A stretch of 64,000 bases of DNA, from assembly GCF_000150955.2 (NCBI RefSeq), contig NC_011679.1, forward strand, positions 806,001 through 870,000, written 5' to 3'. The notes below the pieces were generated by a model. That model saw nothing but the letters and a program-made list of their open reading frames with translations, was not told the origin of the DNA and searched no databases. This stretch comes from Phaeodactylum tricornutum CCAP 1055/1 (Eukaryota > Bacillariophyta > Bacillariophyceae > Surirellales > Neidiaceae). Below, in pieces: positions 1,918-62,350 of the stretch. The translations under genes were made by a program, and so were the position numbers. Position 1 is the stretch's first letter; each line of letters opens with the position of its first letter.

Positions 1918-2456
1918 GATGATATCGATGCCGTCCTCGAAATTCCAAGGGGCCGTACCGTTTTCGGTCCTCCCAGATCAGGTCTTTGTGTGATGTAGGT
2001 ACTCTAGACCGGGACTTCAGTGGTTCAAGGCCTTGTCCGTCGTTTCCTTGGATGTTCAGTTTTGCGTGTTGTCATTGTCCCATATCGACACAAACCCTTA
2101 AGGGAACGAATCCTGTGTAGGGTTTTAATTCGAAATTTAAATTCGGAAACTATTGGTTGCAAGTTCAAGTAGTGTCAGGCAAAAGGTGGTATTCCTGTCG
2201 ATCATTCTGTTGATTCCTCCCGTCGATGCCTAATTTTATTGCCTACGCTTTGCCGTCGCGATGCAGATGCGTTTCTCCGATTCGTTTTTACTTACAGTGA
2301 GATATTCTCTTTTTCAGCGACTAACAAGGCACAGTTGCCAAGAATCACTCAACATTTCTGGTGAATTTTGGGAATAAAAGCAGATTGAAACGAAAGCTGA
2401 GTGAGTCTGGTCGTTGTAGAACCATTTTTAATCCTTGAGTGATTGGCGTCGTCGGC
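1918..2456. promoter_or_regulatory. Divergent intergenic region between two genes
   Basis: This 540-base stretch lies between two outward-facing genes. It holds a palindromic CCCTTAAGGG near 2095 and one variant of the recurring nonamer (TTACAGTGA, 2292-2300) about 160 bases before the TLDc start. No gene is seen in it. Confidence 0.5.
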
Positions 2457-4142
2457 ATGATCCAAAGCTCGGCCACCTCCACACGCAGTGTCAATGAGAT
2501 GCTGCTAGATCATTTCCCTGTCAGCGAAACCGAGTTGGAAGGCATTTGTTTGGTGTTTTCTCTGTCGCAGCTCCAATCACTGCTTTTGGGCGGTACTGAG
2601 GCTCAACTCATAAACGGCAGCAACATCGCAAAGGATCTACGGTTGTCGGATCTGCGTCGCGCAGTTCCGTCTGGGCCTGTTACCGATGCCAATCTTGGCG
2701 CGACGACCGACGAAATGTTGACCAAGCTGGAATATGTTGAGCAGCATCTTTTACCAGAATTGATTGAAATCTTTTGCCATACGTTGCGTTCTGTTTTCGT
2801 GTTGGATCTAGTATCAGAAGCAGACGGTTGCGACGAGCCGCTCTCTCTGATGGAAACAGCTAGATTGTTAGAAACCTTTGTCTCGCTATGCGGTCGACGA
2901 TCCTCACACTTTCTTATGAAAACCCTGTTTGATGCTGTTCTGGACCAGGACGGGAGCGCAATCCAAGGCCAAGGCAACCATGTCGCCAGTGTCGAAGCCT
3001 TAGCAAGTCTGTTGCATCGCTTTGCCGTCGCCTACGAATTTCTTGCCTCGACGAAAGATGCCGAAACGGTCGACCGTATTACACCATACAGTACAGAAAC
3101 GCCACTAGCCTGGATTGATTCCCTGTCCTCCAGCATCAGTAACAACAAGATTTCCAATGCAGAGTGGCGCGATTGGGTGAACAAGACTTGTCCCAATTTT
3201 TCGCTTTTTGTCGCGTCCGTATGGCATATAGCGCTCATTCCTACGCATCTTTTTGAAGCGAGCCGGCAACCGTCATTTCGGTCCGTGACGCTCGATTCTC
3301 CCTCTTCTATACTGCTGCAGCACACTCGTCTTGATCGAGTCACGCTAGCGGCCATGACTTTGGATGGGCCATGGAAACGCCTTTACTCGAGTGCCTTGAA
3401 GGATGGACTAAGTTTTTTAACCCTTCAGCAAGCCTTGTGGAATTATGTGGGACCTACAGTACTACTGATTCAATCTACTGGGGGTGCCCGGTTCGGCTAC
3501 TTTACTCAAGTACCTTGGAAGAGCTCCACGAAATGGTTCGGAGCGAGTCCCGACGGGCCTTCTAAGGACGCCTTTTTGTTCGCTCTTGAACCAAGCTGGC
3601 AGCTTTACAGTCGCATAGGAGACTCGTACTGGCAGTATCTGCATGTTCCTTCTCGCTCCCGGCAAGGAATACTTTCTGGATTGGCTGTGGGTGGGGTTGC
3701 GGAAGATTCCCCACGATTGCACATTACCGCAACGCTGGAAGGATGCCGAGCGTGTACAACGGATACGACGTTTGAGTCGGGACCATTACTCGGTGCTGGT
3801 CAGGACTTTACCTTTGATATAGAAGCAATGGAGGTGTGGGCTGTTCAGTTGCAGCACTCAACGGACTTTCCTGCCTGCCAAGCAGAGGGAGAAATGCGTG
3901 CCTCGATTCGGGAAGAGACACGCTTGCGTTTTGCGCAAGTGGACAAATCCCAGTTTGTCGAAGATTTTTCGTCTGGTGCGTTCATGAATCATGTGTACCA
4001 GCATCGAGCACAAACGCGAGGACGGGCCGACTTTGTGGCTGCGGATACTGGCGAGCTGGGGTACTATGTCGAAGATAAAGCACCAAGTGTGCCGTCAATT
4101 TGTGACGACGACTATGAACTCGACTTCCAAAATTCCCATTGA
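2457..4142 (+). CDS. TLDc-domain protein
   Basis: The single-exon protein has 561 residues. An in-frame GTG lies six codons earlier, but ATG 2457 is the first true start. Residues about 330-480 form a TLDc domain: an LYSSALKDGLSF lead-in, then the core LLIQSTGGARFGYF, a FLFALEPSWQLY strand and a closing acidic GPLLGAGQDFTFDIEAMEVW segment. The N-terminal 320 residues are helical and could be an EF-hand-derived or regulatory region, as in TLDC1/MEAK7 and yeast Rtc5. Family knowledge: TLDc proteins bind V-ATPase or protect against oxidative stress. Which role applies here is inference. The domain call is strong; assignment to the MEAK7/Rtc5 branch is moderate. Confidence 0.85.
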   Translation: MIQSSATSTRSVNEMLLDHFPVSETELEGICLVFSLSQLQSLLLGGTEAQLINGSNIAKDLRLSDLRRAVPSGPVTDANLGATTDEMLTKLEYVEQHLLPELIEIFCHTLRSVFVLDLVSEADGCDEPLSLMETARLLETFVSLCGRRSSHFLMKTLFDAVLDQDGSAIQGQGNHVASVEALASLLHRFAVAYEFLASTKDAETVDRITPYSTETPLAWIDSLSSSISNNKISNAEWRDWVNKTCPNFSLFVASVWHIALIPTHLFEASRQPSFRSVTLDSPSSILLQHTRLDRVTLAAMTLDGPWKRLYSSALKDGLSFLTLQQALWNYVGPTVLLIQSTGGARFGYFTQVPWKSSTKWFGASPDGPSKDAFLFALEPSWQLYSRIGDSYWQYLHVPSRSRQGILSGLAVGGVAEDSPRLHITATLEGCRACTTDTTFESGPLLGAGQDFTFDIEAMEVWAVQLQHSTDFPACQAEGEMRASIREETRLRFAQVDKSQFVEDFSSGAFMNHVYQHRAQTRGRADFVAADTGELGYYVEDKAPSVPSICDDDYELDFQNSH

Positions 4143-4287
4143 ATGAAGTAACAGTAAACTGCGTAACGTTAACGCTCAATGCTACGAAAAGCGATCCCAT
4201 GTTAATGCATAAAGACTGCGAGAAATCAAGGTTCATGAACTTATCAGAAAGGACCGCTACGTATTTGTTTCTAGACTTTCCTTTGGG

Positions 4288-7134: not shown

Positions 7135-7320
7135 ATGGTTGCAGCTCCCACACTTATTGCACTACAAAGAGGGCTTATTCTACCACCAACCACAGATCTG
7201 TTTGAGACTGTTTGCTATTCTGAAGTGAAGCTCGTCGAAGAAGGTTCTCAAAACCCGTCATTGTGGCTAACTGTAACACATAAACGAAATTTGAGCCATT
7301 CTTTCCATTCGCTTTCCACC

Positions 7321-8442
7321 ATGGTCCCTTCCTTACTCCCGACGTCCGCACCTTTGTGGAAACGCTGGAATCGCCGGCGCAAACCCAGTACAAGAAAAGC
7401 TGATGATACATCGCCACTACTTCATCCGGGAATGCCACCGAACGTATCCTGGTGGAATTCGCCGCTTCTCGACGAAAATTCCTTCATACCGGTGTTTCCA
7501 GAGAGTCTCCAAGAAGCTGAGAGTCTGGAAGCACAATGGGACCGCCTTGATCGTCTAGATGGAATCGCGGGGAAACGATTTCAGAATAAAAATGGAAAAA
7601 ACAAACAAGCATCGTGTCGACCACCACTCACTCGAGCTCCGCAAATTCACGGGCTCGACTCCAAGAGTTATGAAACGACCGAAACCGAGGACGACTCACA
7701 ATCGGAACGTAGCGTTGAAACACCTCTAGTACCTACAGCGATTCGCTGGGCCGATCATCACAACTTGCCTCTGGCCAAAACACACGTTCTGAATCTGCAC
7801 GGTGGCCAACATCGTTTGGTTATATTGCTCATTCATCCGATCGCGCGGAAGTTTGAGTTCTTACACGTTGAATACGACGTCTCCCAGAGACTTACCGTAG
7901 GTGGGATTCTGCAGCAGATTCCTCATTTAGCTTCCAGCAAATGGTTTCGGCCGTTGCACTTCACCGCACTTTACCACTCCCGGACGGGTTCGGCTACAAA
8001 TGACGGCGAGAAAAGTACGAGCCATCATAGATCTTCATGTACTGAACTTATTCATATTGTGACGTGCCAAGACTATGACTTTGCTTGGAATGAGATATTA
8101 ATTGCGGTCGCGGATACCTTCGAAGCCTCCGTGGTAACGGAGCAAGCCTCTCAGCTACTTCTCAACGCCCCGTTGCGTAAAGCTGTACGGAAGGCCAAGT
8201 ACACTGGGCGAGCATTGCAACAGCTAAAACCGGATAGCAAATCAACCAACCTGTCGCGACAGCTTGATGCAATCGAAAAGCTAGCGTTATCGTGGGATCA
8301 TATACCCGACTTTGATGCACTGAAGTCGGTTCTGCACAACGCGTTTGATTTGTTCTGTAATCCTGCCAAATATCAGGTGCTGGATGTTTTTGATGATCTG
8401 TCTATTTTATCTGTTTCTATTGATGATCACGAATTCCGATGA
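7321..8442 (+). CDS. Unidentified protein, diatom-type
   Basis: The frame runs from ATG 7135, but the start chosen is ATG 7321. It sits in a strong CCACCATGG context, and a copy of the recurring upstream motif (TAACTGTAA, 7268-7276) lies just before it. The product is then 373 residues, or 435 from 7135. The first third is basic and low complexity. Residues about 145-210 form an alternating hydrophobic domain (LVILLIHPIARKFEFLHVEY, then VGGILQQIP) that resembles a ubiquitin-like or other beta-rich fold only loosely. The C-terminal 130 residues are helical. There is no signal peptide or membrane segment. I do not recognise the family. The length and codon pattern support a real gene. Confidence 0.7.
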   Translation: MVPSLLPTSAPLWKRWNRRRKPSTRKADDTSPLLHPGMPPNVSWWNSPLLDENSFIPVFPESLQEAESLEAQWDRLDRLDGIAGKRFQNKNGKNKQASCRPPLTRAPQIHGLDSKSYETTETEDDSQSERSVETPLVPTAIRWADHHNLPLAKTHVLNLHGGQHRLVILLIHPIARKFEFLHVEYDVSQRLTVGGILQQIPHLASSKWFRPLHFTALYHSRTGSATNDGEKSTSHHRSSCTELIHIVTCQDYDFAWNEILIAVADTFEASVVTEQASQLLLNAPLRKAVRKAKYTGRALQQLKPDSKSTNLSRQLDAIEKLALSWDHIPDFDALKSVLHNAFDLFCNPAKYQVLDVFDDLSILSVSIDDHEFR

Positions 8443-9178
8443 CGGAGCAAGGTCCGAACAATCATTACCAAAGCATAGACTCCTACACTATAGGCTGTGA
8501 TGGATCCATTTATGATTAGCTTTTTGAAAACATCTGCTCAACCAGGAGCCGGTAGACCAACTCAGTTAATGTTGTTTACAAACATCAAGAGTGTCTTGCT
8601 TACAATCAGACTGAGAACTCCACAATCCAAGAAATATATGAGGTGTTCGGCCTATGACGCAAATGTCATGGCAACTGTTTTCTCTTGCATAAAAGACTGC
8701 TCATCAAGGACTCTTCGAGGCGTTGTTTTACAGCCAATACCGTGTCCCATTCATCAGCTACTCAACCTTTCAGGCTGTGTCGAGTAAACCTTACCATGGT
8801 TGTATTTAAAAGCGGATGTTCCACGATTTCAATGAAATTGAAATACGCCCAATTTGAAATTGAGGGGTTGCATTCTGATAGTGACGGACACATCTTTCAA
8901 GATATAACTAGACGCATACCTAATACCTCACTAACAAAGAATCTTGATATTCAACCCAAGCAAAAATGTAAAGGCTAGAATGTATTGACTTTAAATGTGA
9001 TCTCATTTCTCCTCACAGTCAATTTTTTAGGTTCCAGGTGAGAAATTGTTACGGCCATCAATACGGCCGCACTGGAGTACGGATCGATGTGCTATTCCAG
9101 TCACTTCGAGCCAAAAACATTAACAGGAAACAGAGACAGCGTTCGTGCACATTCAACATTTCAACATAACTATTTGTG
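8443..9178. other. Convergent intergenic region
   Basis: The 3' ends of two genes face each other here. Short frames (for example 8497-8787) have no recognisable content. A TCACAGTCA motif is at 9013-9021, downstream of both genes, which makes it one of the few copies not near a start. Confidence 0.4.
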
Positions 9179-9748: not shown

Positions 9749-10201
9749 GTTTACTTTTTGTTGGTGATGATATGGTTCTGCTTCTTCCGTCGCGAATTTT
9801 AATATCTCATCTGCATCGAGTCAGTCCGATTGAATCTAGATTTCTTTTAGCAGTACATCGAACTCGATAAGCTTCTAGTGTCTATTCTACTTCTGTTCTC
9901 AACTGAGGACCAGTCCTCAGGTGAGGCCACTTTTCAGACCTATGGTAATAAACAAAGAAATCATTATTAAAGAAAGTTACCGCTACCGTTGTCTTCAGCA
10001 TGCTCTAAAACGTCTTGGGGTAAAGTAGCAAGCTTTAATATCAAAAAGTGACAGAGAAATGACCGTCAACGGAAAGTTCATCGTTTTTTTTTCAAATTTT
10101 TTTGGCGGGTAAAATGGCTTGTCTGGACGTCAATGAAATGGCCATTACATCCCTGATACTTGGTTTATGTCATATAAATTAGGCTTGGTGCATTGTCAGA
10201 C

Positions 10202-11703
10202 ATGCCAGTGAGGGATTCTAGACTTCGAATTGGAGGGAAGGTGACGGCAAAGGCTTGTCATGTTGTGCATCTGAGCAAGTGTGCACAGAGATATGGCGTC
10301 AACAAGCACTCCAAGCGGCTTGTTGGAACAGTTCTAGACGTCACGACCACCCCTGTATCCGTTTCAACCGGGCATACCTCTACTTTGATTACAACAGTTT
10401 ATGATTTTGGAGAGAGTTTGTTCAAGGAAAAAACACTGAACATTCGGAGTGTAAAGGCATTTGTACTGCCAGAAGATGAAGGAATGTCCTTAATTGAGGA
10501 AATAGCCGCAGAGGCAGCAGAAGCAGACATGGAAGCCGGAAACTTGATGGAAGAAAGTGTCGAAGCCCCAGTAGCCGAAATAGTTGAAACCCCGGCTGAC
10601 ATAGAGCCCAATACCTTGGTCGACACAGAGCCCGATAGCCCAGTAGCCGAAATTGTCGAGACCCCGGTTGATGACAATACCTTGGCTGACACAGAGTCCG
10701 AAAACCTGGTAGCCACAGTGCACCAAACAGAGTGGTATGTGAATGAAAGAAAAACCCAGCTGGATGTGAGTGGCCATGTCTATATTAGGCACTTCTATAT
10801 CCATACTTCAGTTGGTGACCTTATTGGTCAAGACTCTGACAATGAGGTGAGATTTTCGCGCCTCAAATATTTTCTGCTCATGTTTCCGCTGACCCAGCTG
10901 ACTACTATGTGTTGGCTTACAAATTCTATGCTTGCTCAACAAAACAAGCATCCAATCACAGCCGGAGAACTTCTTTGGTTCTTTGGAATCCTCATACTCA
11001 CCACAAAGTTTGAGTTCAGTAGCCGGGCCCAACTATGGTCCACAACTGCACCCTCCCGACAAAGAGGGTGATGAGGAGGATGAGTATCTACCTCATGGTG
11101 CAAAGATTATCAAAGAACTTGTTTGTCCTTGGTGGGGGAATGATTGGATTGTGTGTGCTGATTCTTATTTTGCCTCCGTTGTGACAGCTGTCAAGCTTAA
11201 GAGGATTGGCTTGAGATTCATTGGGGTTGTGAAGTCAGCAATGAGAATATATCCAAGACACATGGTTAGCCTACTGCCAATGTACAGGAATAGGAAAGTC
11301 TGCTGGACAGGAAGAAAAGCAGAAGGATTTCTACAGTGCCTTAGCCGAGGAGCTGGTTGACAACCAGTACAATGATGTTGGAAGTCGCAAAGTTGGGAGG
11401 GATGAGTTGGACAAGGATAGCCCAACAATTTCCAGACCTGGAGAGCCGCAATGTGGTTTCTCCGCACATCTAACACCCACCAAAAGAAAAAGAAAGAACA
11501 AAGATGGTACTATTAAAAACCAAAGACAGCAGGGAAGGTGTTTGGTGTGTTCCAAGAAGACCACATATGTTTGCTCTGTATGCAATGATGTTGAGACAAT
11601 TGAAAGCAAAGCTCTGTATGCAAAGATGTTGAGACAATTGAAAGCAAAGAACCATGGATTTGCTACACAACGGGAGGGCAGCTATGCTTTGCCCAACACC
11701 TGA
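10202..11703 (+). pseudogene. piggyBac-like transposase (DDE_Tnp_1_7), broken
   Basis: Three overlapping or adjacent frames hold one disrupted transposase: about 10202-11071, 10990-11360 and 11407-11703. The first piece has the N-terminal domain, with LVGTVLDVTTTP, an acidic Glu/Ala-rich linker containing imperfect repeats, and then ILILTTKFEFSSRAQLW, typical before the catalytic core. The second piece keeps the second catalytic Asp in VCADSYFASVVTAVKLKRIG. The third has a C-terminal cysteine finger (CLVCSKKTTYVCSVC), as piggyBac proteins do. The block around the first catalytic Asp, expected between pieces one and two, is missing, so an internal deletion removed part of the core and the enzyme is dead. 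Confidence 0.75.
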
Positions 11704-12120
11704 CTGCCTTGCATGGTAGTGAAGGACTTTATAGTAGTAATTGGATACAAGTAACTCCTATTAATTATGGTAAAAATTTGTTTCTTAACCATCATAGCTA
11801 AATCCCTATTATCTGTATAGTTTTTTACTGTGTCTACAGGATTATCTACAGGATTTGGCCCATTTAAATAATTTTTTTGCGTCAATTGAAGGCAAAGAAC
11901 CATGGATTTGCTACACAACGGGAGGGCAGCCATGCTTTGCCCAACACCTGACTACCTTGCATGGTAGTTAAAGACTTTGTAGTACTAAGTGGATACAAGT
12001 AACTCCTAGTATTTATGGTAAAAATGTGTTTCTTAACCATCATAGCAAAATCCCGTTTACCTGTATAGTTTTGTACCGTGTCTACAGGATTTGGCCCATT
12101 TGTTTCTCTATTTTTGCGTC
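11635..12120. repeat. Tandem duplication, unit about 248 bases
   Basis: The stretch starting CAATTGAAAGCAAAGAACC at 11635 is repeated from 11883, and both copies run through the end of the transposase gene into its 3' flank. The copies look about 90 percent alike. A shorter 38-base duplication lies just upstream, near 11590-11665. Confidence 0.75.
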
Positions 12121-12433: not shown

Positions 12434-14130
12434 GTGTTCATCAATAGAACTACGAAGCAACCTAAGCGTCTCTCAGCTCTCAACCCTGCCCTACCGCCAA
12501 TCCGCCTTCTCTCTGTCCCGATGTCAACCTCTGCTCATTTCAAATTGAGCGACTTTCCTCAGAAAGTCCTTGACCCGATCGCCACCACCACCGTCCCACC
12601 AATTTACGCCACCATCAAACACGCGCAACGCCAACTCATGACCAATGCCGCCGCCATCCCAATGCTCAACGGTGGTGGTGCCCATGGCCACATGGCCTTA
12701 ACGCTCTCCCCTCGCGCTTACGCCAACATCAGCAACGTCCCATTCATCATTCCCGTCGCCCCGCCAGCCAATCTTCCCATTGGCACCACTCAACCCGAGA
12801 TTACCAAGAACAACAGCATCCATTAACACAATGCTGACATTTTCAATCTCTTTGTTGCCGTCAACAATGCTCTCCGTCAGCAGCTTCTTGACGCCATCCC
12901 CCGGATCTACATTCGCGCCATTGCGCATCCTTTGTTTTAATTCAGCAATATGACCTGTTTCAACTTGCTCCAGCACCTCTGAACCAAATATGGCACCATC
13001 AAGCCTGCCAAACTCCAGGGAAACTTTCAATCTATGTACACCCCATGGAACACCACTGTTATGGTATGTCTCCTTGCAACATGTCTCATGGACATGATTC
13101 ACCTAACATGGATGTCACAAGTGTGAATCAAAACTATGCACATGGAGTTAAGGAGGCACGCACAGAAATATTGTCAGCCTTATTTTGTGGCCTTGTGGAC
13201 TCACAATAAAGGGAGCATTTGTATGATTGCTTATGATTGCTATGTTTCTGGAGGCGCATGTGTTTAGACCTTACTTGTCGGTTTACAAGACCAAGGTACA
13301 GTGAAATACAATTGGAACATAGGAGATACAATTGTGGGAACAAAAGGGGTACCACAAAGCACATGGTGGGATTGAACAAGATCCTATACTCACCATAGGT
13401 ATTGTTCAAGGAACTTGTAGTTCCAAAAGTATATATACATGTGAAAGAAAGGTTGCCTATTGAGATTATGGCAGCTGTGGAAGATCAATAATTCAATGGC
13501 ATTTTGTGGGATTGTTCACTGGACTGAACAACAGATTGACTAGTTTGTAGAAGGTAATCACCCACTCATTGTTTTATAAGTTCATTGATCCAAATTGCAT
13601 TCTACGCATAGGTCCTTGTATCCGCTGTCTAATCCATGGGGAGCGTCATCAACAAGTTGAGTTTTACAGTCCCTAAGCCTCTTAGGTGTATTGCAGGTTG
13701 TTTGTCTCAACGCCCACCTTTGTTTACCACTCACTGTCCTAACAGTGATCTGTCCTACAGTTGTACTTTGGTAGTACTCCGTAACAACCACCAAGCCCAT
13801 ATGACAAGGCCATTGCTTTCTCCACCAACGGACACAACCCCATCTCTGAAGCTGCCGCCGTTTGGGCTGGCTACAAAGTCATTGCGCACTCCGGCCTGCT
13901 TCCCCAGGATTGAAAAGACTGGCAAAAACTACCTTGTGCTTCTCACACGCTTGCCAATTTTCAGGCCCACTTCTTGCTTGCCAACAAAGACCGGCGCCTC
14001 ACAGTCACCACCGGCTCCTTGGGCTACGCCAATGTTCTTGCTGCCACTCCCTCTCTGGCTCCCACGATTGTCTTGGACACTCTCAGTCTTCCTTTCTCTG
14101 CGCTTTCTGTGCCTAGAATTGTGCAGACTT
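12434..14130 (+). mobile_element. Ty1/Copia-type (diatom CoDi) gag fossil, broken and interrupted
   Basis: Two blocks match the gag region of diatom Copia-like retroelements. The first, about 12521-13110, includes YATIKHAQRQLMTNAAAIP and a GGGAHGHMAL turn. The second, about 13797-14130, includes TLANFQAHFLLANKDRRLTV. Between them lies some 690 bases of foreign sequence ending in a repeat described separately, so another element inserted into this one. The fossil is fragmentary, with several breaks, and no pol region or paired LTRs were recognised. It is old by appearance. Confidence 0.6.
13540..13796 (+). repeat. Unnamed dispersed repeat, copy A
   Basis: This copy begins CTAGTTTGTAG and includes TCTACGCATAGGTCC and a CCCTAAGCCTCTTAGGTG block. 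It aligns with copies near 14548-14930 (opposite strand) and 20297-20530 (same strand). Its right edge abuts the second half of the Copia gag fossil, so it marks the end of an insertion into that fossil. Confidence 0.6.
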
Positions 14131-17899: not shown

Positions 17900-18562
17900 G
17901 GCAGCTCCTTTGATCGCGGTCCTTCTAAATCCTTTCTGAAAATTCACTGTCAGGAGATGTGAGCATGGCCGTTCCCTGCTATTGTGTATAAAAAACAAAG
18001 CGAGAAGCTCGTACCACAGACGCAGGATGTACCGGACTGGCGCAGCCTCGCCATCCATTTGCCAAAGGAACTATCAAACGCAAGTCTCTGGCGCGCGCTT
18101 CTATGTATTTTTTTTAAATTCAGAGAAAGAACGTCCTTCATGTTCAAAATTTCTCAGATTTATACTTTTGAATGTCTCAAATTGCGAGACATACACGTTT
18201 CTCCAAATAGCCGTTCCTGCGTAGAGAAGGAATCGCCCCTAACCGCCTATTTTCTGTGCCCACAAAAGGATATTACATTAACTCGAAAAACGGAATCACA
18301 ACCAGCATTCCTTGTCTATGGTACTCCCTCTTCAGAGAACCATATCTTGAACCTATGCTAACAGCAACCTGATGCCTAATAATGTAATATCAGCTTGGTG
18401 TACAAATTTTCAGGATGGTTGACTGTAAATTAAGGAATGATGAAGGGAGTGCATATCTGAAAATATGGATGTGGAGTCAAGCACTTACCTATGATACCAT
18501 TGTTGCCCTAGAGGTAAATAAGACTGCACAAGTGACAGAAAGCCAATTTGAAGAGACTCTCT
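17900..18562. other. Upstream region of the sulfotransferase-like gene
   Basis: It holds two copies or variants of the recurring nonamer, TCACTGTCA at 17944-17952 and TGACTGTAA at 18420-18428. No separate gene is supported. It ends at the left terminus of the small piggyBac-related element. Confidence 0.4.
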
Positions 18563-19062: not shown

Positions 19063-19079
19063 ACACTAGACTGATGATT

Positions 19080-21922: not shown

Positions 21923-22358
21923 TTCCCTAACATTTACATTTTTGTAAATTAACTTTCAAAACTACCTACGGTGACGGTTTTGTTGTACTCATACTGTACG
22001 ACATCGTTTTGACCAATAGCATATGGCACTTCCTCTTACGTCGGGCCGTCGTGTGACTACAAGGATTGTGACTCACCTTCCTGACAGTGAAGATCACAAG
22101 CTCCTGTCTGTGGCGGTCTCGAACGTGTGTTCGCGTCTCTGCCGCGAATGTTGACCATGGCGGCACTGCTGAGCTGGTGATAGCTCCGACATGCTTTGAA
22201 AGCTGTTAATTGTTCCACAAAAGTTAGCTCCCCCAGTTTACAGCCATCTGTCTTGATTTGAATCCACGGCGAGCTTCATTGTGTCCCAGGTTTAGTTGCG
22301 ACGCTTCTGTGTCTACGGCTTTTTCTCCGTATACCATCGCTTCATCACAACATTTAGA
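21923..22358. promoter_or_regulatory. Upstream region of the DUF1995 gene
   Basis: The stretch of about 430 bases after the truncated element contains TGACAGTGA at 22082-22090, a variant of the recurring nonamer, 270 bases before the start. No gene is supported. Confidence 0.4.
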
Positions 22359-23507: not shown

Positions 23508-24017
23508 CAGAAAAAGTCCTTACGAGATGCCCGAGGAGGCATAACCGCCAACTGGTCTCTCTCTTTGTGTGTCTGTAAGATGAGAAACAAAGGAAAAGGA
23601 AGAACAACTGTTGAGTTCCATGATTTTTTGCTGCTGTTCTGTCCATGTTTTTAATGCTGGTAATTATATTTGGATTTTTATTAGAAATCACAATCGAACT
23701 GTATGTGTGATTTACTATTGGCCGAAAGCAAAGCTACAAATAAAATTTCGGACATTCCGCCTCTTCATCTATGCTCTATGTAGACAAACACGTAATTACT
23801 TACATTTACTTACATTAATGTAAAAGAAATTCCAAACGGCTGATGGTGTCTCGCTATTTTGGCTGATGAAACCAACTCTGTTACAGTTAGCTAGGTTACA
23901 TCTCTCTCTCTCTATCCTTCTTTCTCTTAATGTAAGCAACCATTGGTCTAGCAGCACAGTGGATTCAATACATTTTCTAGCAGCGATTCTGACAAGGCCT
24001 CAATCGGCAAGAACGAG
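23508..24017. promoter_or_regulatory. Intergenic with CT tract and TTACAGTTA motif
   Basis: This is the 510 bases between two genes read in the same direction. TTACAGTTA is at 23881-23889, 129 bases before the next ATG, followed by a short TCTCTCTCTC tract, which is a common initiator-like feature. No gene is present. Confidence 0.45.
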
Positions 24018-26463: not shown

Positions 26464-28522
26464 GGTAGAGGGCGGGGTTTTTCCTAAACAAACGGGGCAG
26501 AAAGGCGAAGGTGACGATTCTTGGGGGGTTACGGTGTTGCGATAGCTGATTGGATACGTTGTGGTGTGTCTACCTGATACATGATGTCGAACAGGAATCA
26601 AGCAAACTGGAAATCGGATCTTTGTATGTTTCCAAATGCACGAGAAGTGGCCGTCCACTTACAGTTAGTAATTATGGGAAATAGCCATGCCGGCATGCAT
26701 GGCTTTGCGATTTACTGTAAATCTCGACTCCGAACCATGATTGAATTCACATGAAAATAGACGCTCTGGATTGTAGACTTATGAAAAAAGACATAAACAT
26801 GAGAGGCAAACTGATTTTAATATTATCGCTCACTGCCTGAGGTAGATTCGGGAGTGAACGTGCATACAATTTGCGAACACCGAAAAAATCTCATTCATAA
26901 ATGGGATATTCAGAATTCAAATTTTGTTTAAAGGCAAAAAGGACCAATCCATTGTTTATCCACTTGAAATATGCCTACCGGGACACCAACCGTGAAACGA
27001 GAAAACTTGAGTCCAATTCGGTCATAGTCTACAGTGGCAGCTTGACTGTGAGTGCAAAACCAAAGTTCTGAAGATCCGTGGCAGAGATGCAAGCATAAAC
27101 AAATATTAGGATAACACACTTTGTGGGTACAAATGAGAAATCTATGTGAAGAAATTTGCTAATTGAAAAGTGGTGATCAGACCATGCCAAAATGGATCTT
27201 TAACAGCTGCCTTTTATGTTAATTAAATCTTATTCCTTAGAATCAAAATTCAAATGGAAGCCTGTCTAGCTAGAAGCATATACCTGAAATCTTGAGGCGA
27301 CAGCTTACAGTTACGTCCTTCAAATCAGACTGGGTTAGTTGTCCACGCTCAAATTCATAGTCAAGCAAAGCCAAACAATTGCGTTCTCATAAACTTGGCT
27401 GATTGCAATATAGCTCTGACCTCCAAAGGAAATTGCTACTGTACCAGGAAGGTTTGACTGGTGTCCGCTTGTACAATACCCTTACGTCTTGTCAACTACT
27501 TGACTGTGAGAGTTGTAGCTACATCTAAATCCTCTCATTGGCAGTTTTGTGATAGGAAATGATTTCTTGGATACTAGCCCATTTATAAATCTTCGAAATT
27601 GTGCAGTATACTTGTATAGGTGTTGTAACAGTCAATGGACAAAAGGTTTGTCGGTAGTTAATGATAGATTGCTTGCTATACCATCCTTTTCTGTTTGTGG
27701 GTTTGACATGGTCTGAGCACCCATTTACAGAAAGCGAATCTCTTCAATACGTTGAATTAATGTAAGATGATTGTACATGATGGATTTTCGATTTTACGTC
27801 CGGAGTGCACAGAACGCAATCGAATTTTCTCAAGTAAATTTCGTCTGTCGACACCTGGATGACGTTGCGATGGCTACGAGATTTGACTTTTCGACTCCGA
27901 GCCGGATTCTCGAAAGTCCCGCGTAATATTATTTATTGGATGGCGAGGCAGCAGATCAAGATAAAACGATTCGATTATCCAAACTGTCGGTTCCAGTCTT
28001 ATTGTATCTGACGAGTCTTGTATTACTGTAACGTCACTATCAAATTTATTTAGCCAGACGACTGTAAGACGTGATCTATGTTGAAAGCGCTCTCGATAAA
28101 AAACAATGTGGCTTTCCAACGGTCGACTACGGGGAATTGCCGGCCACTATTTCTGGGAAAGAAAATATTGACTTGACGGTGTGTGAATGTGCGGAGTAAT
28201 ATTGTACCAGGCTGGGTTTCCACTTACAGTTGATGTATGTGTATCAGTTCAACAGTTTTGCCACGAGACCCCGCACAAATCGGATCCAAAAATTCCTGGA
28301 CAGTAACAAAGGTAGGCCTATCAACGTGTTGCGGCAAGCGACAAGACGAGATCAATACAACAAAATCACAATACGAAGACGAAAACGCCAAAGTACACTA
28401 GCTTTTCTAACATTGATTGAAAGACTGGCTACCTTACATGGGTAGGTATTTATCGGGCGGTCTCAGCAGTCTTTGGTTGCGTCCCTACGGCTCGTGAGTT
28501 CACACGTGGCGTTCATTCCATC
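26464..28522. promoter_or_regulatory. Long divergent intergenic region with a motif cluster
   Basis: About 2 kb separates two outward-facing genes with no supported coding frame. It carries the densest run of the recurring nonamer: 26659 TTACAGTTA, 26712 TTACTGTAA, 27043 TGACTGTGA, 27305 TTACAGTTA, 27501 TGACTGTGA, 27626 TAACAGTCA, 28023 TTACTGTAA and 28224 TTACAGTTG. Small minus-strand frames (26928-27119, 27874-28119) look like chance. Confidence 0.5.
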
Positions 28523-30372: not shown

Positions 30373-30917
30373 AGCGATTCGATTGTCTTTGATGTGAATA
30401 TATCTGTATCAGCCCAAAGTTTTTTCCTCCATTTACATTCCCGCAAAATGAATTTAGCAAGAAGTGGGAAGTGGTCAACTGGACTTGACAGTAGAAGGGG
30501 ACGTCGCTGGTTATGATGCAAAAAGTGTACTACGCTCTCTTGCGGATGATTTTTTGACCAAAACCGAGTCATTTATATGGTGAAACCAACTACATAGAAA
30601 AAAAGACTGTCCATCGATTGACGTACGATTACAGAGTCTAAACGTTCCAAAACAATCGCGATGTACACATTTCTAGGTATGTTCACCTTCAAAAAGCCTG
30701 TGAAACTAAAGCCTTTTCGGACGATTGTTCGTGAATTACAGCCAGAGCAACTCCATCACTGGCCCCAGTACATCCCCTTATCTACAGCACGCTTGCAACT
30801 CTGGCGCCGCGCGGGCCGAAAGTAGTCTGATCCTAGCGCAGATTAGACCCAATTTCACAGTCAGACTGTCTGAATAATTTGAAATGCAGCTGTCACCTCA
30901 CCTCAGTTGTCTAGCAT
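30373..30917. other. Intergenic region
   Basis: It lies between the TRAPPC5 start and the 3' end of the methyltransferase gene. TCACAGTCA is at 30855-30863, about 480 bases upstream of TRAPPC5. No coding frame or repeat is supported. Confidence 0.4.
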
Positions 30918-32400: not shown

Positions 32401-34792
32401 GAGAAAATTCGCTATTTGGGATGAGCAGGCGTGAAAATTACGCTATTTGGGATGAGCAGGCGTGAAAATTACGCTCTTTGGGAAGAAACACATCGATTCT
32501 AAGTATTTGTATCCTCGCGGGAAATGACTTCTAGAATGTAAGTAAAACATTTATTACTAACAATCTCATATCCTATGTTAGATCACAAGGATCATTTTCG
32601 TGTGGTCATCCCTTCACTGTCAGTTGCCTCCAATGGTCAGGACCTCGGAGACGGCAGATGCAAACTTTTACTATTTCTTCCAGACAACAATAGGAAGAAA
32701 CACAACTACTGTGAAGCTAGCAATTAAAGAGATCTTTGGAGACTCAGCTTAGGATTGTCTAGCTGGGCTCCTATTGACCGCCTGGCAAAGCTGATTGAAG
32801 CTGACACACCCTTCTCTGATTTTTCTCCACACAATGAAGCCTCAATTGAAGCTGCATGGTTGTTGTCAACCCAAGTCTTACTATCATGGAATAAAACTTG
32901 TCAAAAACGGCGTCAGAAACCCAAAACGTTTGTCCCAAACTGGTTCATTGCGTGATCCATACTCAAGATGACGGTTGAATATAAACTCCTTAGTAAGGAT
33001 AGGAGCATGCAAGCGCACCATATGTTCAAGATGGCTGGCAGCAATGACACCCAAACCACGGCTTTGCTTTGCCACAATGTCTTCCATTTTAAGACCAGTA
33101 CCAGTCTCTTGCACCCTTAATATATTTGTTTCAGAAGTGACAGGTAAAAACTGGAGATTGGTACTGTGGTCGAGAAAACCTGTTTTGGTACATATGCTTG
33201 CACCTTCATTTTCCATGCAGAACACGGCTTTCTTATGTCAGGGCTCTTCATTTGCTCCGTCAGCATCCCAGGAGATGATTGAGCTCAATTCAAAGCTGAG
33301 ATCTGAGGGGAATCCAAAACATCCACTGCGCCATGATTTGGTGAATGCCAATGTTTGCTGCAAATTCCCAGCGTGTGGATTTGAATCCCTGAATCTATCA
33401 ACTCATCAGGTTCATTGAATTCAAAACCAACAACACCTCATGTTTCAGTGACCTGATCAAACACACTTGACAAACACAAATACTTGACTTCGATTTTTGC
33501 GACGGTACAAAGAAAGCCAAGGACAAGTTGCAGAAGACTTGTCCACAGAGTCAAAAATGATGACGCCTTCAAAAAGTAGTAAACTGCATGTTACATGAAT
33601 AGCTTTGCTTACACAATTGATTGGGCATCCAGTGCTGTCATCTGGTCAAAACATTCCGCCTGGCAAGATGGAGTTGTTTGGTGCGAGAAGATTGTGCGGC
33701 TTAATATGGACAGGGAACGGGCAAACCAGAATCTATTCGCGATTTATCTAAAAGTGTTTTTTGACGGTTCCGTCACGCGAAATGACAGTCTGAGTTGAAA
33801 GTTCGTGAGCGGCTCGCGCCTGTAGCCTCTTGCTGTTGTCCATACCCTGAGTTGGACCTGTACTGTAGTCGCTCTACCAAAAGAGCATGTATCTCGTCTT
33901 CACTGATGACCGCTGGCAAGGGACCGGCATCGGACGATGGCGTATAGTTGTGTCCAAGTGGGCCCAAGCAAACGTTTGACTAACAATCGCTTCAACTTCG
34001 CCAATGTACGGCGACGCGTACATGCCGGCGGGTGCAAGCAATAAGAATGCCACATTGCAAGACCAAATACTCGCTCAACTGCAGCTTTGCCCGAGAACAA
34101 CAACTCATGGGGTTCTTTGTACTCCGAATTCTAATAACCCCACCTTATAACAGTATGAATTCGTGCTTACTCTCGGCGCCTTGTGTTGCTTTCTGCACTT
34201 TCTCCTTTTTCGTCGCGGCTGCCCAATACCTCAGACAAGCATTTTTCCTTGGGTTGTGCGTTCTACAAAGCAAGAGTTGGCTTCTGGGTGGCGAATCGAA
34301 AATTTCATGGACGGAACTATTGATGAGCTCTACAAACGCAAGAATGCGAATGATGGAAATCAATGAACTAATAAGAATTATGAGTCGATTGAGAATCGCT
34401 ATTTGGTTTGTATGGCTTGGAGACACTCTCAATGACTGGTTTGAATGGCAATGACATGTTTGAAATGTCAGCGGGAAGACTGGAATGCCCGGTTGGCGTT
34501 CTTGTCTCGTAAGTACTTGTGATTTGAATCGGGATACTATCAGTAGAGCCGTAACTGATAGGGTAACTGTCATCAGTACCGTAACTGATAGGGATAGGAT
34601 GATTGGGCTCGATCTTCATATCAACAGGAACTGCTTCATTGAATTCCAATGGCGACGTATAGTACATGCGATTGTTCATAGTATTTTACTCAAAATTCAT
34701 TTCCGGCGAGGATAAAAATACTTAGAATCGATGTGTTTTTTCCCAATTCGCGTAATTTTCACGACTGCTCATCCCAAATAGCGAATTTTCTC
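32401..34792. mobile_element. 2.4 kb element with about 105-base inverted ends, unclassified
   Basis: Both ends start GAGAAAATTCGCTATTTGGG and pair for about 105 bases, through a shared CACATCGATTCTAAGTATTT. The left end has an extra tandem copy of a 34-base unit (GGGATGAGCAGGCGTGAAAA inside it). The interior has only broken short frames. A minus-strand remnant near 34080-34250 (KKEKVQKATQGAESK) matches that of the truncated copy near 21 kb. The transposase class was not recognised and no clear target-site duplication was seen. Confidence 0.65.
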
Positions 34793-37693: not shown

Positions 37694-38728
37694 GAATCTC
37701 GATAGAATTACGAGAGTGGCCGATGCACTGATTGACTATGAGCATAGCCAGATAAAATGAAAAAAATTGATGAGGCTTTGGTTTTCTCTTCGGTGAGAAA
37801 ACCGCATGCAGATTGAGTTGCCTCTCTTCTCACCTTAATTGTAAGGTTCGTAGCTAGACCGTCCAATTTGAAAGCGCGTGTGAGCGTGTGGCTATCGTGA
37901 CTGCTTCATAAGAATGGACTCGAAGAATAAAGTACCGAAATTAACAGAAAAAATCAATTCGTTTTCATCGGTGCTACAATATAGATGTAAAGTGATTTCA
38001 TCTGACAAACCTTTTGTCATTTCCGGGATACATCGAAATTACAATGAGCATCGCATTGTAATAAGCCTGATAGGAATCTTATCTGTTCTTCAAGTCACTG
38101 CAGCAGAGCGAAAACGCTCGCCCCCGTATTTTCAAGATACTACAGGAGAGATTGCCGCATTCACACTTACATTAATACGCCAATCAATAGTTACAAAAAA
38201 ACTATTAATTACCCGTATGTCGGGTTGGCCAGCTGTTTTTTATAGACGTGCAATTACTTAACAGTAAATTATATTATTTCGAAATTCGTTGCTTGTTTGA
38301 CAGATGTAGCCTGCTGCTAACCTGACTGTGAGGGGAGATCGTGCTAGACACGCCACTCCTATTCTATGCTCAAGCCGTCCTACTAATGTAAAATCTTCTT
38401 GGTTTACTGATCTAGCAAAAAAGAGACGTTCTAACGGCGCGTGGTAGCCACGTTACGGCACGTGCCCTATTTTAACCTTGTCCTGATACTATTTTGAGTG
38501 GTCAATAGTCTATCTCATACTCAAAACAGCTTAAGATCGTACTGTATCTACCATGTGTGTTGCGTGTCAGACATCCTATCAACCGTAAAAGTCCATGCTG
38601 GTATTTACTAAAGTAGAGGAAGGGTAAAGAATCTACAGCCACTAATTTTTGTGAACACAAATTCTCCATCTCGCTTTCGAACTTACAAATTCCATATCCA
38701 CCGGAGTGAGACTTTATCCAAAGACATA
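37694..38728. promoter_or_regulatory. Shared FRE2/FBP1 divergent promoter
   Basis: About 1 kb separates the two divergent iron genes. A perfect palindrome GGCACGTGCC lies at 38457-38466, about 265 bases before the FBP1 start. A CACGTG-type iron-responsive element has been reported for the P. tricornutum Fbp1 promoter, as I recall. TGACTGTGA is at 38323-38331 and TAACAGTAA at 38259-38267. A 115-codon frame (37914-38261) has no recognisable features and is discounted. Confidence 0.6.
38457..38466. promoter_or_regulatory. GGCACGTGCC palindrome (possible iron-responsive bHLH/bZIP site)
   Basis: A ten-base perfect palindrome with a CACGTG core sits between FRE2 and FBP1. Its placement suits control of both genes; function is inferred. 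Confidence 0.5.
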
Positions 38729-40267: not shown

Positions 40268-40879
40268 TTGCCGCATTGACTGAGATTGCATTTTTTGTCT
40301 CTGTTTGTTAATCAGTTTTAACTTTTCCGTTTTTCTGTTTTGGGTGTAGAGCCCTTGTTGTACTTTTGGGAAAGACTACGATTCGCTATCGTCAAAACGA
40401 TGTACAAAGGAACAATAGAATTGGAAGCAGACTCTACAAAGAGCGTCTCGAGGCGTGAGAGTTCCCATTGTTTCATTGTTGACTGACCGTGACAATGTAC
40501 TCTTTCTGCTGGCTCACAACCTACCGGGGGCGCCGTTTCTCTTTGGGAGATCGTACATTTCTTCTACATGTCTCCCGTCTTGGTACAAAGCATAACTCGC
40601 CAACGAAGGCTGTCTTCCGTAGCAATTCACCACTTCAACGTATGTTCAGAATTTTTTTCAATTTGTTACATTCCACATTCTAGTGCACAACTGTGAGTAC
40701 TCGTTCGACCCACTCACTGTCAGAAACCAACGCGCAAGGATCTGCGCACGTGTGGTCGTTTCTCACTGTGATTCCAATCGGACAATATCCAGTTCCATCG
40801 TCGCTTTCCGAGTCCAACACAATCTCACACAGCGCTCGTCCAACACATAATACCTACGGGGAATCGAAAACGACAAACA
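40268..40879. promoter_or_regulatory. Intergenic upstream of methyltransferase, paired motifs
   Basis: About 610 bases without a supported gene. TCACTGTCA (40714-40722) and TCACTGTGA (40763-40771) lie 49 bases apart, 110-165 bases before the next ATG. A GCACGTGTGG box is at about 40746. Confidence 0.45.
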
Positions 40880-45856: not shown

Positions 45857-46461
45857 TCTTCCGAGACCACGGGCGGAAGTAGGTTTTTTAGTTGTGTCAG
45901 ATCAGTGTCGAGATGGCGTATTTATTAACATTTTGAGTCTCGATAAGACATGGTAATTCCTGGCATTTCGCCGACTGCGACAATGATGACTCCCACACTA
46001 CAACCGGTCGCCAACAATGACCTTCTCTCTAGTGTTAGCCTGTGCTGACAATTGGTAGTCGTCATTCACAGTCATTCCTCTGTTGACAACAAACATTTAG
46101 TAGCGCAAGAGCAGAAGTCGTGTTGAATTTATTACTGGTCCTCTCAGCAACCGACTCTATGTGGTATACATCAGTGAATCTTTTAGGAATCTCGATTAAC
46201 TGTACAAGTTTTGATTGGTCGATACACCAGAGCTGACACGCTGAACGAACTGTTGTGGAGTGACCATGGACAGAAATCTAATTATGGAACAGACCACGTA
46301 AAAATGCTAGCCCACATATCGAACGTCCTTTGTAATCAAGGGTCTACACGAAACAAATCTTCATCTCGCGCATATGCCTGGCGTTTGCTTTGTAACTCGC
46401 TTAACTCCTTTTTACTGTGGGCTTTGGTTGGTGCCAAACGTTACAAAGCTCTTGCGCCACC
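45857..46461. promoter_or_regulatory. Upstream region of the amino-acid transporter
   Basis: About 600 bases without a supported gene; a 124-codon plus frame here is not convincing. TCACAGTCA is at 46066-46074, about 390 bases before the transporter ATG, and a partial copy (TAACTGTAC) lies near 46198. Confidence 0.45.
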
Positions 46462-49482: not shown

Positions 49483-51249
49483 GGTGATTGCAAAGGATGT
49501 ATGTGTTGACTTTGAGTAAAAAATTTTCTATTTCTTGTTTGTTGTTAGGATACAATTTTGTGAGTATGTCAGCATCGTGCTCTAACGATGACAAAACCGC
49601 TGCGACCGTTGCAATCTTGTTGGGATGTTTTTTTGGTTTCATTCACAGTCGGTGTCAGGTTTGCTAGCACACGTATGAAATCACATAATTATTAAAGAGC
49701 TAGCTTTTTGTTTTTACTTTGTCGGAAGCGCAAGGGGACTTTTTGTGCGTTGAAACCTGAATATTCGTCCCAAGACTTGTTTTTGGAACTTGCAGCAGGT
49801 GTGTGAGCTACTCGAAAACTTCCTCACCAAGCTACCTACTAGCTTTCTTTCCATATGCAAAAGCAAAGAACAACTTTTGTTTGGCTGTGGGAGAACTGAC
49901 ATACTAGGTGGGTTTAGAGAGCCAGTCACGAAAAATTCTTATGTGATATGTACATGTCGTGTTCTGTCCAAAATATGATTCGACAACCGACCAAATTCTG
50001 ACTGAGAAGTAGAAGAGAATCCGAGAGTACAGGTATCGACCAAATGCCAATATTTCTCTCTCAATTTACAGTTAGGTCCGGAGTTTGCTATAGCAACTGT
50101 AGGCGAAGTATCAACCGGCTATTGAAGCCTGAAGACTGAGCCATACTATTCAGAACAGGGCTTGCAAGTCGGCATAATTGTCTATCAGCGAATTTCCTTG
50201 CTTGGGTCCGGACCTTCATGCAAATATTTTGGAATTCCTAGACCCTCTCGATCTAATCTGGGGCGATTCACGATGTAATAGCATTCACCTTGTTTTGTAA
50301 TCCTGGAATGTATGAGATCAAGGAGCCATTGAATTTGGTGAAGCAATTTTAGTCATGCGCAACAAATAAACTATGAAAAATCGCGCCCTGTTGTTGAATG
50401 CTCGAGGTAAGCAGGGGAATGGATTCTTTGCTGTAAAGGCTCTTACCCTAGCCAACAGAAAAGCGCGACTCCTCGACATCCAGATATTTCTATTTGAATT
50501 TGAAACGTACAATTTCTCGTACTCGTGTCAGAGACTCTGATGCCTTTCTGTTCTACATTGACAGCGAAACCGGGTAGAATCTCAGGCGCTGCTCTTCTTG
50601 CAGGATAAAATGACGAGCCGGTAGCCAATTAGGAAGGCTTTGTGAGTTTCATTTCCCATGGGCTTGGGGCGCATTTAAAATCCTGTTTTCCCCCCGCTGT
50701 TGGTTGAACTCGACGGCCGTCATTTCTAGAAACGGATTGCTATTCTTGTTGCGCGGTTCCAAATTTTGGAAGAAGGTGATGAGAGATCCAAGCTGATTTG
50801 TGAAGAAGAGTGTTGGTGCTCTAAACATTCTATCGGTGTTCCCAGATTGCAGTGACCGTCGTAGCCCTAGTAAGCGCCAGCAGCCACGTCTGTCTGCTAT
50901 ATACTGGCAAGTAGCGTGTATGCCAAATGTCGATTGGCAATGTTCTTGGTTTCATATGAACACCAGAATTTGTCGTTCGCGATCTATCATTAACTGTAAA
51001 CACATCATCAAGGAGAATGGCCAGATCTACTGAGAGGTCGGCTTGCGCAGTGCGGTCTGCGTTTCTTCCTCGTGCAATCGCGTCAAACGGGAAATATACT
51101 GAAATATTATGATTGCAAACACTTTGTTTCATGAACCTAGCAATAATGTGTACTATGATAGGAGCAAGCAGATCCGAGGCCAAGCGTTAAACGAACTTCT
51201 CGCGCATTATACCTATAAACCAATGGGGCATCACCAGTTCGTGGTCGAC
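49483..51249. other. Long intergenic region, no supported gene
   Basis: About 1.8 kb. Nonamer copies occur at 49643 (TCACAGTCG), 50066 (TTACAGTTA) and 50991 (TAACTGTAA). The first lies 160 bases upstream of the secreted-protein start. Frames up to 117 codons were inspected and show no recognisable features. Confidence 0.4.
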
Positions 51250-54597
<3,348 letters not shown>

Positions 54598-54888
54598 ATG
54601 CACATCGTGAAACTCTACGTCAGCTTTTGTGCTTTTGCTCTGTCAGTATGTGATTGCGATGCAACCCCTCCTTCGCTAAACAAGCATGATCGAAAACTTG
54701 TCGGCGGCATGAGCAAGAAGTCGGATGCTCCCTCCTCGGCACCATCCGAGGGAATGCCATCCGATATCCCGTCCAGCCAGCCATCGCTCAGCTTGATGCC
54801 TACCTGCGAGGACGGTAGCACCAAGTCCGGAAAGGGCAGCTGCAGGAGTGGCAAGGCAAAGTCGTTAGCTGGGCATTTACAATCATAA
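54598..54888 (+). CDS. Small secreted Ser/Pro protein
   Basis: The product has 96 residues with a clear signal peptide (VKLYVSFCAFALSVCDCDA), then HDRKLVGG, a PSSAPSEGMPSDIPSSQPS block and a Lys/Gly/Ser tail with two Cys (CEDGSTKSGKGSCRSGKAK). It looks like a miniature of the 256-residue secreted protein at 48712-49482, with the same order of RxL-like site, PS repeat and KSGKG tail. A wall or extracellular role is inferred. The ATG is in an A-rich context and the short length lowers certainty. Confidence 0.6.
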   Translation: MHIVKLYVSFCAFALSVCDCDATPPSLNKHDRKLVGGMSKKSDAPSSAPSEGMPSDIPSSQPSLSLMPTCEDGSTKSGKGSCRSGKAKSLAGHLQS

Positions 54889-56106
54889 AGGATGTAAGAA
54901 AAATCGATGGTTTAGAAAGAACAGCGTCTGACCAAAAAAATCCGGCTTCTTCAAGGAATCGTATCCTGTCAATGTGCTTTATTGCAATGAATTGTGTCAA
55001 ATAGAATTCTTAGAGATAATAAGACTTCCAGTATAAGGTACAAGTGAAGCTTAGAGCAATACCACTAATGATGTATAGGAACAATGCCACTAATTGTTTG
55101 AGAGAACAATACCACATACGCCTGCAATCTGCACATTTTGCTCCTCTGAGCAGAATGACCGTTGTTGTGTTGGAAAAGCGAAGTCAATTTGGGAGGTAGC
55201 TCCGATTGACACTGGCCAGGCGAAGGTTGGCAAGGCAAAGTTGTTAGCAGAAGGAAATGGACAATGACAGAGCTTTTTTTTGAGGTTGTCCAATTCAATA
55301 AAAAAAACACGGCTCAACTTCGATTCACAGTCAGATTTTTTCTCTGCTTTATTATGTCCTTCAAACTGATTGATTCTCCAGCTGGTTCACTGTCGATAGC
55401 ATGCCTGAATGTTGGAATCTACTTCATATTAGGCTGTCCGGTCATTAGTTGCAAGTAGCTGTAATGAATTCAATCATTCACAGTCAACCAGTACAAGCAA
55501 ACTGCTTGGAAAGTCCTTTATTTTGGCAGCGAAAGGATGTTTTCTTCTTAGTGTTAAAATTGTGTTAGTGTATCACGAGAGACAGACTCCTGGCATGTCA
55601 TCAGATGTCCCAGACGGTGCGTGTGTCATCCGTCGCTACTGTCCTTTGTCAGAGCAACTATGGAAGAGATTCTGTGGTTCTAGTAACATGGGAAGGATAA
55701 CTACTCCAGAAACACTGCTGGAGCTCTTTTCCCACTTCTGGTTGGTAATCGCCGACTGGAAAAGAGCATCTCGTAGGGCACTAACAGGCCAACGATTGTT
55801 CTAAGCACAACAACCTTTTATTATGAGTGGAACTGCGCCCAATTGTTAGTAAATCAATCCTCATGATGGGGTTTCCCGAGCTCACAACCCGATGAGGGCT
55901 CTTCTCCATAGCGTGTTGACTGCGACTTCGACTGTGACTAACAACAGTAACTGTAAATTGGCACCTTCCCCGGGTGCTCACTAACATGTAACTGCTAAAG
56001 TCTGTTCATACGACCAAAATAGTATCTACAGGCGTTAGCACTTCTGACAATGAAAGGTCTATGATCTGCTTTGCTTTGAAGTGTCGGGGGAGAGTAACTA
56101 TTGAAC
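54889..56106. promoter_or_regulatory. Intergenic region with repeat echo and motif copies
   Basis: Near 55220-55270 a stretch (GGCAAGGCAAAGTTGTTAGC) echoes the 3' end of the preceding small gene (about 54849), suggesting a decayed partial duplicate. Motif copies lie at 55325 and 55478 (TCACAGTCA) and 55948 (TAACTGTAA), the last 150 bases before the PGAP1-like start. Confidence 0.45.
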
Positions 56107-58303: not shown

Positions 58304-58477
58304 TTATTGTCAATGCAATTGTTTTTGCGTAGCACATCCCTGGATTGTATCCGAATATGTTCCATCCGTATAGTAGTAACCGCAGAATCAATCACTTCAT
58401 GGGAACATGGAAGCACTTGGGTCCACTTATCGTACACCTATGGCATCAAATCGTTTCCAAAAGCACCGAGGTCTTGG

Positions 58478-60622: not shown

Positions 60623-61135
60623 GCTTGCATAACAGCTACCCTGGAAAAAGGTGATGGGAGTGCAAGGAAAGGACGCTAGACTGTGTCACTTGAGCTTCTC
60701 TAGTTGTGCATGAGGAGAGAAGCCAGATCAACAAAAGAAACTTGTTTGGTAGTAAGGGTGATTGAAGGTGGACGAGGTTTTATCACAGTCAATGATTTCG
60801 AGGTGTTCGATTTTTCCTCGGATGGATTTTGCTGGTTCCACCAAAATGGCGTCTGGCCTCCCGTAGGCACTGGTTGCCGTACCGTATTAGTGTGGGAAGG
60901 AATACCCTGACCCTGAAAACGCAGAACCCCCTACATTTTGTACGATGACCTCTCTAGCTAGTGTTGATCAAAGATTTCAAGTATCCAGCGTGTTGTGCCA
61001 TGCATCGAAATTTCCATACTTTTCTGACGTGCATCCTTCAAATACACTTCAGAAACCCTTGACTATCCTACGTCAGATGAGGTATATTCGCTTACACAGA
61101 AGTGTTGCTTCTCTCTTCAGCAAAAACCTTAACCT
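60623..61135. promoter_or_regulatory. Intergenic upstream of the GTPase gene
   Basis: About 510 bases without a supported gene. TCACAGTCA at 60783-60791 lies 160 bases before the GTPase ATG on the other strand. Confidence 0.45.
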
Positions 61136-62272: not shown

Positions 62273-62350
62273 GCTGGCCAGCAAGGTATCACTGTCAACA
62301 CCACTCCCTCCTCTCATTGAAATTTACGGTCCAAACATTGCAAACTGAGC

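Follow-up and report, generated by a model that had tools for sequence, protein, structure and literature searches.

The transposon Sleeping Beauty is described as leaving a CAG footprint (PMC8151067), and the excision of mariner and Stowaway elements as keeping the target duplications together with terminal bases of the element (PMC4561436). The NuwaII elements, which belong to the PHIS superfamily (PIF/Harbinger-ISL2EU-Spy), are reported with target duplications of the form 5'-C|TNA|G-3' (PMC4482050). And among the 3R-Myb proteins of the oomycete Phytophthora infestans, three of the five with motifs share ACTG (PMC11267843). Here we describe a 9-base motif, TNACAGTNA, that resembles all of these in part. 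It recurs across a 64-kb stretch of the genome of the diatom Phaeodactylum tricornutum CCAP 1055/1 (NC_011679.1, positions 806,001 to 870,000), which we will call the window and within which all coordinates are given.

The motif can be written as TNA-CWG-TNA, and most of its copies have the same base at both N positions. Our preferred idea is that each matched copy was left as a footprint when a cut-and-paste DNA transposon excised; the alternative is that the copies are two related classes of binding sites. We put the footprint idea at slightly under an even chance. As in the Tc1-mariner group, a 3-nt CAG-type scar would lie between retained target duplications; however, Sleeping Beauty duplicates TA (2 bp) instead of TNA (3 bp), and the source element is not seen in the window. 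A 3-bp TNA duplication would be shared with the NuwaII group of the PHIS superfamily. The C...G flank preference of those elements has a counterpart here in Y...R, although the flanks here (Y before 23 of 29 matched copies and R after 22 of 29) are weaker than a strict C...G. As for 3R-Myb sites, the reverse complement of ACAGT is ACTGT, which contains ACTG, but the 9-bp context and the matched N are absent from the relevant passages of that paper (PMC11267843).

Among the literature matches listed for exact strings, diatom motifs, footprints and diatom transposons, we found no description of the motif (most subscription journals were outside the reach of these searches). One 40SRPS8-promoter primer in a P. 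tricornutum construct paper holds GACTGTGA (PMC10706280), from which we draw nothing. The separate parts of our proposal are thus precedented in the systems above. We know of no publication that combines a TNA duplication with a C(A/T)G scar.

Abundance and the matched bases

With the strands pooled, the window has 13 copies of TCACAGTCA and 9 of TTACAGTTA. A Markov-2 model predicts 0.52 and 0.25 copies, and a Markov-4 model 0.75 and 0.49. Under both models these are the first and second most over-represented of the 9-mers with at least four copies; therefore, the finding is not a pick from noise. The enrichment had been claimed in an earlier note on this DNA, written from the sequence alone, and it holds. 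The 12 coordinates given there for TCACAGTCA and the 9 for TTACAGTTA are all exact, but the note overlooked one TCACAGTCA, at 13999.

Because CAG and CTG are reverse-complementary, TNA-CAG-TNA and TNA-CTG-TNA form a single family. Across the 16 combinations of bases at positions 2 and 8, the four matched cells hold 29 copies (AA 2, CC 13, GG 5, and TT 9) and the twelve mismatched cells hold 13. The earlier note had seen C pair with C and T with T at these positions, and this co-variation is confirmed (CC 13, TT 9, CT 2, and TC 2; Fisher p = 0.0009), but it is wider than was claimed, since G..G and A..A occur too. The bases match when read along one strand: 29 copies have the same base, 5 are palindromic, and 8 are mixed, with p = 4e-5 for same versus palindromic. 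No palindromic form is enriched in the window (TGACWGTCA 0, TAACWGTTA 0, TCACWGTGA 2, and TTACWGTAA 3). Of the 11 close variants in the earlier note, 17944, 22082, 32614, and 40714 are matched copies with T at the center. Five others (2292, 18420, 26712, 28023, and 40763) belong to the mismatched class, which is near background, and those at 28224 and 49643 fall outside the form TNACAGTNA; the matched copies at 4149, 38259, and 62289 were overlooked.

We considered that the pattern might reflect chance, base composition, or a larger dispersed repeat. The sample is a single 64-kb stretch, and the data that revealed the rule also served to measure it. However, noncoding DNA has 25 matched copies. 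By comparison, 200 Markov-4 simulations of noncoding DNA averaged 2.0 and never exceeded 8, and 3,000 column permutations of the words averaged 1.27 and never exceeded 11. The mismatched copies in noncoding DNA (9 of the 13 in the window) are about as numerous as in the 200 simulations (mean 6.2, maximum 14). We also screened families of the form XNY-sss-XNY by comparing the same-N count to one third of the different-N count. Of 1024 edge-by-spacer families (512 independent ones after strand folding), TNA-CWG alone was extreme (p = 5e-15; the runner-up had p = 1.7e-4), and no other 3-nt spacer was enriched comparably to CWG. A larger repeat is at odds with the lack of any significant flank preference beyond 2 bases and of any longer shared sequence. 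We consider this group of explanations to be extremely improbable.

Both halves of the window show matched N (13 same and 9 different in one, 16 and 4 in the other; if the two positions were independent, the ratio would be about 1 to 3), but this split is not independent of the discovery. We also scanned viral contigs, using the window's epimerase, GTPase, kinase, and transposase fragment, as well as a diatom light-harvesting protein, as queries. These scans gave 14 loci (L001-L014), all from one query, in which matched N is not enriched (6 same and 25 different); L014 looks viral, judging by eye from its open reading frames (ORFs). In a scan of genome contigs, 8 beta-tubulin loci bear titles of bacterial metagenome-assembled genomes. 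No locus among the matches of the viral contig scans or the 8 beta-tubulin loci was recognized as diatom.

Several simpler descriptions were rejected. A simple palindrome is ruled out by the 29 same-base versus 5 palindromic copies. A tandem hexamer is ruled out by the base after the nonamer, which is a purine in 22 of the 29 copies and C in only 5. Comparison with the window's repeats and self-alignments rules out that the copies are parts of larger repeats. And there were no Rfam matches at the gathering score, so the motif was not assigned to an RNA family; tRNA was likewise rejected.

Flanks, base use, and location of the copies

The family has a sharp edge, with no longer sequence common to the copies. 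When the two sides are pooled, A is depleted at the -1 position (p = 4e-4); the next base out shows a weak preference for A/T (p = 0.04), and no position beyond that, out to 12 bases, reaches p < 0.05. Copies with Y...R flanks are 17 same and 3 different, and those without are 12 and 10. N is free, but must match on both sides. In the matched copies N is C/G 18 times and A/T 11 times (62:38), and at noncoding YTNAR sites the counts are 325 and 211 (61:39).

Just 4 of the 29 matched copies lie within coding calls (p = 1e-4). These calls are from a three-periodic hidden Markov model, whose training set was 20 long ORFs from the window and which labels 49.7% of the window as coding; they are rough and do not resolve introns. 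The four copies are at 117, 7268, and 17944, which are in long ORFs, and at 13999, which is in a weak 119-bp call. The earlier note was right that the motif is mostly intergenic, but it had placed only the copy at 117 in a clear reading frame, and 7268 is in a long ORF as well. Coding segments of at least 180 bp contain 3 copies, versus 0.91 in codon-order shuffles (P = 0.063), which is no clear excess. The proteins encoded by the long ORFs that hold 117, 7268, and 17944 have no match in Pfam.

Relative to predicted start codons, none of the noncoding copies is within 100 bp upstream, 12 are 100–600 bp upstream, 8 are 600–1000 bp upstream, and 5 are elsewhere. The earlier statement that many copies lie 50–400 bases from a start codon is thus loosely correct. 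Hand-chosen repeat blocks make up 36% of the noncoding bases and contain 3 of the 25 noncoding copies (p = 0.011), and convergent intergenic DNA has 2 copies in 5.3 kb. Some intergenic regions hold several copies, but clustering is not significant (the median distance between neighbors is 380 bp versus 545 bp expected, P = 0.33).

Individual copies of TCACAGTCA are on the forward strand at 9013..9021, 13999..14007 (in a repeat-rich block), 30855..30863, 46066..46074, 53299..53307, 55325..55333, 55478..55486, and 60783..60791, and on the reverse strand at 27043..27051, 27501..27509, 38323..38331, 53674..53682, and 53910..53918. TTACAGTTA is on the forward strand at 23881..23889, 26659..26667, 27305..27313, and 50066..50074, and on the reverse strand at 117..125 (inside the long reverse-strand ORF 1-1977), 7268..7276 (inside ORF 7135-8442), 50991..50999, 54138..54146, and 55948..55956. 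The other matched copies have T at the center. TTACTGTTA is on the reverse strand at 4149..4157, starting 7 bp past the end of ORF 2439-4142, and at 38259..38267. TCACTGTCA is on the forward strand at 17944..17952 (inside the reverse-strand ORF 16856-18058), 32614..32622, 40714..40722, and 62289..62297, and on the reverse strand at 22082..22090.

Excision footprints or binding sites

We propose that an element with inverted ends starting in CAG was integrated by its transposase at YTNAR targets, whose central TNA was duplicated in the process. When the element excised, its non-transferred strands would be cut 3 nt inside it, giving CAG 3' overhangs. These would pair as C:G, an A:A mismatch, and G:C, and mismatch repair would then leave either CAG or CTG between the duplicated TNAs. 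(In Sleeping Beauty, the overhangs join with an A:A mismatch, from which either A or T results at the center.) Every departure would leave a 6-bp insertion that preserves the reading frame. Such scars would build up in tolerant intergenic DNA, with fewer in coding DNA and in younger repeat-derived DNA, and the element need not be present at each scar site.

Our proposal explains why positions 2 and 8 are directly identical, because such identity is expected when a target duplication of 3 bp (TNA) surrounds a C(A/T)G scar, but not for a palindromic dimer site. The copied outer TNAs, the free but shared N, the short palindromic core centered on A/T, and the palindromic outer preference are the anatomy of an insertion into a palindromic target, with duplication of that target, and a later departure. 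The CWG would derive from the end of an element. We think it a fair possibility, somewhat below that of the footprint idea itself, that a "hit-and-run" type of transposon, which pairs a 3-bp TNA duplication with a Tc1-like 3-nt C(A/T)G scar, peppered the genome with 6-bp scars and left few or no surviving copies. Excisions in the thousands would then be on record in these scars.

With 29 matched copies in 64 kb, the density is about 450 per Mb, which would scale to a number on the order of 10^4 over a genome size of about 26 Mb if the window is typical. Such a density is feasible. For a mutation rate in P. tricornutum near 5e-10 per site in each generation, if ten elements each moved once in 10^5 generations, then 10^8 generations would yield scars on the order of 10^4 in number, with little decay. 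(We offer this as a calculation and not as evidence.) The genome size follows from a survey of P. tricornutum transposable elements, in which 1,665 kb corresponds to 6.4% (PMC2806351).

Several observations weigh against excision footprints. First, no element with a TNA duplication and inverted repeats was found in the window. We examined 191 pairs of TNA-CAG and CTG-TNA that are 40–8000 bp apart; the best terminal match was 13/20, and no perfect 10-bp inverted repeat with a TNA duplication was found in the window. Nor did the indels in 15 alignments of the window to itself reveal an empty site. A Pfam scan of 22 distinct reading frames from the window gave no PHIS-type transposase; its sole transposase match was to DDE_Tnp_1_7. 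In its accessible passages, the survey of P. tricornutum lists copia, RTE, and Mutator-like elements, as well as two other transposase types, one of them weakly related to piggyBac, but no mariner (PMC2806351). Second, mariner-type elements duplicate 2 bp, and the PIF/Tourist elements, which have 3-bp duplications, are described as generally excising precisely (PMC4561436), so the parallels for the TNA duplication and for the CAG scar come from different superfamilies. Third, on the Y strand the center is A in 22 copies and T in 7, while mismatch repair predicts half of each (p = 0.008); this argument is weaker when the bias is compared to the local background without the family (39:29, p = 0.059).

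Fourth, the decay of the copies is modest and uneven. Noncoding DNA has 55 copies with a single mismatch, versus about 34 expected (Markov-4). Because the excess is only modest, a footprint origin would require young scars. This excess falls at positions 3/7 (17 versus 7.9) and 4/6 (17 versus 9.3); it is small at the N positions (9 versus 6.2) and nil at positions 1/9 (10 versus 10.1). Even decay predicts an equal share at each, so this unevenness tilts towards binding sites, although the counts are small. Fifth, end joining is usually heterogeneous, but no clear enrichment is seen among variants with other spacers apart from TNA-CA-TNA (19 same and 17 different), where the excess is driven by 11 copies of TTACATTA. 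Finally, 20 of the 25 noncoding copies are 100–1000 bp upstream of predicted starts, versus 45% of noncoding bases (p = 4e-4). With the repeat blocks removed, this becomes 17 of 22 versus 55% (p = 0.025). A binding site predicts such a bias as well.

We also considered that the copies are two related classes of binding sites, YTCACWGTCAR and YTTACWGTTAR, that are read by one or two paralogous proteins upstream of many genes. The reader might be a transcription factor or a general regulatory or insulator-like factor. This refines the suggestion in the earlier note of a near-palindrome that binds a factor, and we think it a serious possibility, only a little below the footprint idea. It fits with TCACAGTCA and TTACAGTTA being the strongest two 9-mers, with the noncoding and upstream location of most copies, with their scarcity in repeat blocks and between convergent genes, and with the presence of several copies in some intergenic regions. 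It also fits with the paucity of decayed copies, the uneven near-misses, and the bias towards A at the center. A stramenopile 3R-Myb, as suggested by the ACTG motif in P. infestans (PMC11267843), a distantly related stramenopile, is a possible reader.

On the other hand, binding sites do not predict that positions 2 and 8 would be identical on the same strand without any enrichment of palindromes. A homodimer would favor or tolerate palindromes, and the earlier suggestion leaves the shared base unexplained, although its enrichment, intergenic location, and co-variation hold and the upstream bias fits it. The half-sites T.AC and GT.A around one central base resemble bZIP-like dimer sites (TNAC-N-GTNA), but true palindromes, as expected for dimer sites with 1-bp spacing, are not enriched here. 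Furthermore, binding sites do not predict that the usage of N would equal the background, two proteins would be needed, with specificities shifted in step at two places, and the clustering is not significant.

The footprint and binding-site explanations are not mutually exclusive, as scars can be recruited: the upstream ACWGT words may have come from scars that have since become binding sites. If the copies are footprints, then a compact algal genome holds a dense and datable archive of excisions, whose 6-bp scars are invisible to repeat masking. DNA transposons would have shaped upstream regions far beyond what surviving copies suggest, and the pairing of duplication and scar would be new. 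If they are binding sites, then there is about one element per gene in the window, which would imply a general regulator that we did not find described in the literature searched.

Another process of duplication might also be responsible: staggered 3-nt breaks that are filled in and joined with CWG, or micro-elements with internal deletions. The enzyme could be a domesticated nuclease or belong to a non-transposon end-joining system. This would give matched TNA and CWG without a mobile element, and no element with a TNA duplication is visible in the window. But only a dedicated enzyme would account for the constant CWG and the Y/R target preference, which amounts to the transposase explanation again, and we know of no enzyme that makes filled-in staggered CWG joins. 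We consider this unlikely.

Other repeats and reading frames in the window

TTACATTA (TTA-CA-TTA) has 11 copies versus 1.3 expected, none of them in a coding call. These are at 14166, 16451, 18273, 18380, 23810, 23816, 23928, 27758, 32252, 38167, and 38384. TTACATTA likewise tends to be preceded by Y and followed by R, and could be a second type of scar or a separate promoter motif. The third-ranked 9-mer of the window is TTACATTAA.

Fragmentary transposase frames at 10193-11360, which we take to be piggyBac-like, include the match to DDE_Tnp_1_7 (E = 1e-5 for ORF 10193-11071). They adjoin tandem duplications of 38 bp and 248 bp at 11573-12091. An inverted repeat of 156 bp, 97% complementary, is formed by 62117-62272 and 63490-63645 and encloses 1.2 kb; by eye, it is a terminal-inverted-repeat element or an inverted duplication. 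A dispersed repeat that contains CCCAAATAGCG (21834-21943, 32401-32530, and 34694-34808) occurs in both orientations, is partly tandem, and looks like a small mobile element. The copies of a second dispersed family (13539-15024 and 20200-20516) are about 75–86% identical and are also in both orientations. The reading frame at 48712-49527 matches a PT disordered-repeat protein (E = 3e-4, below Pfam's cut-off), and a short Ser/Pro-rich reading frame, read by eye, is at about 54598-54888.

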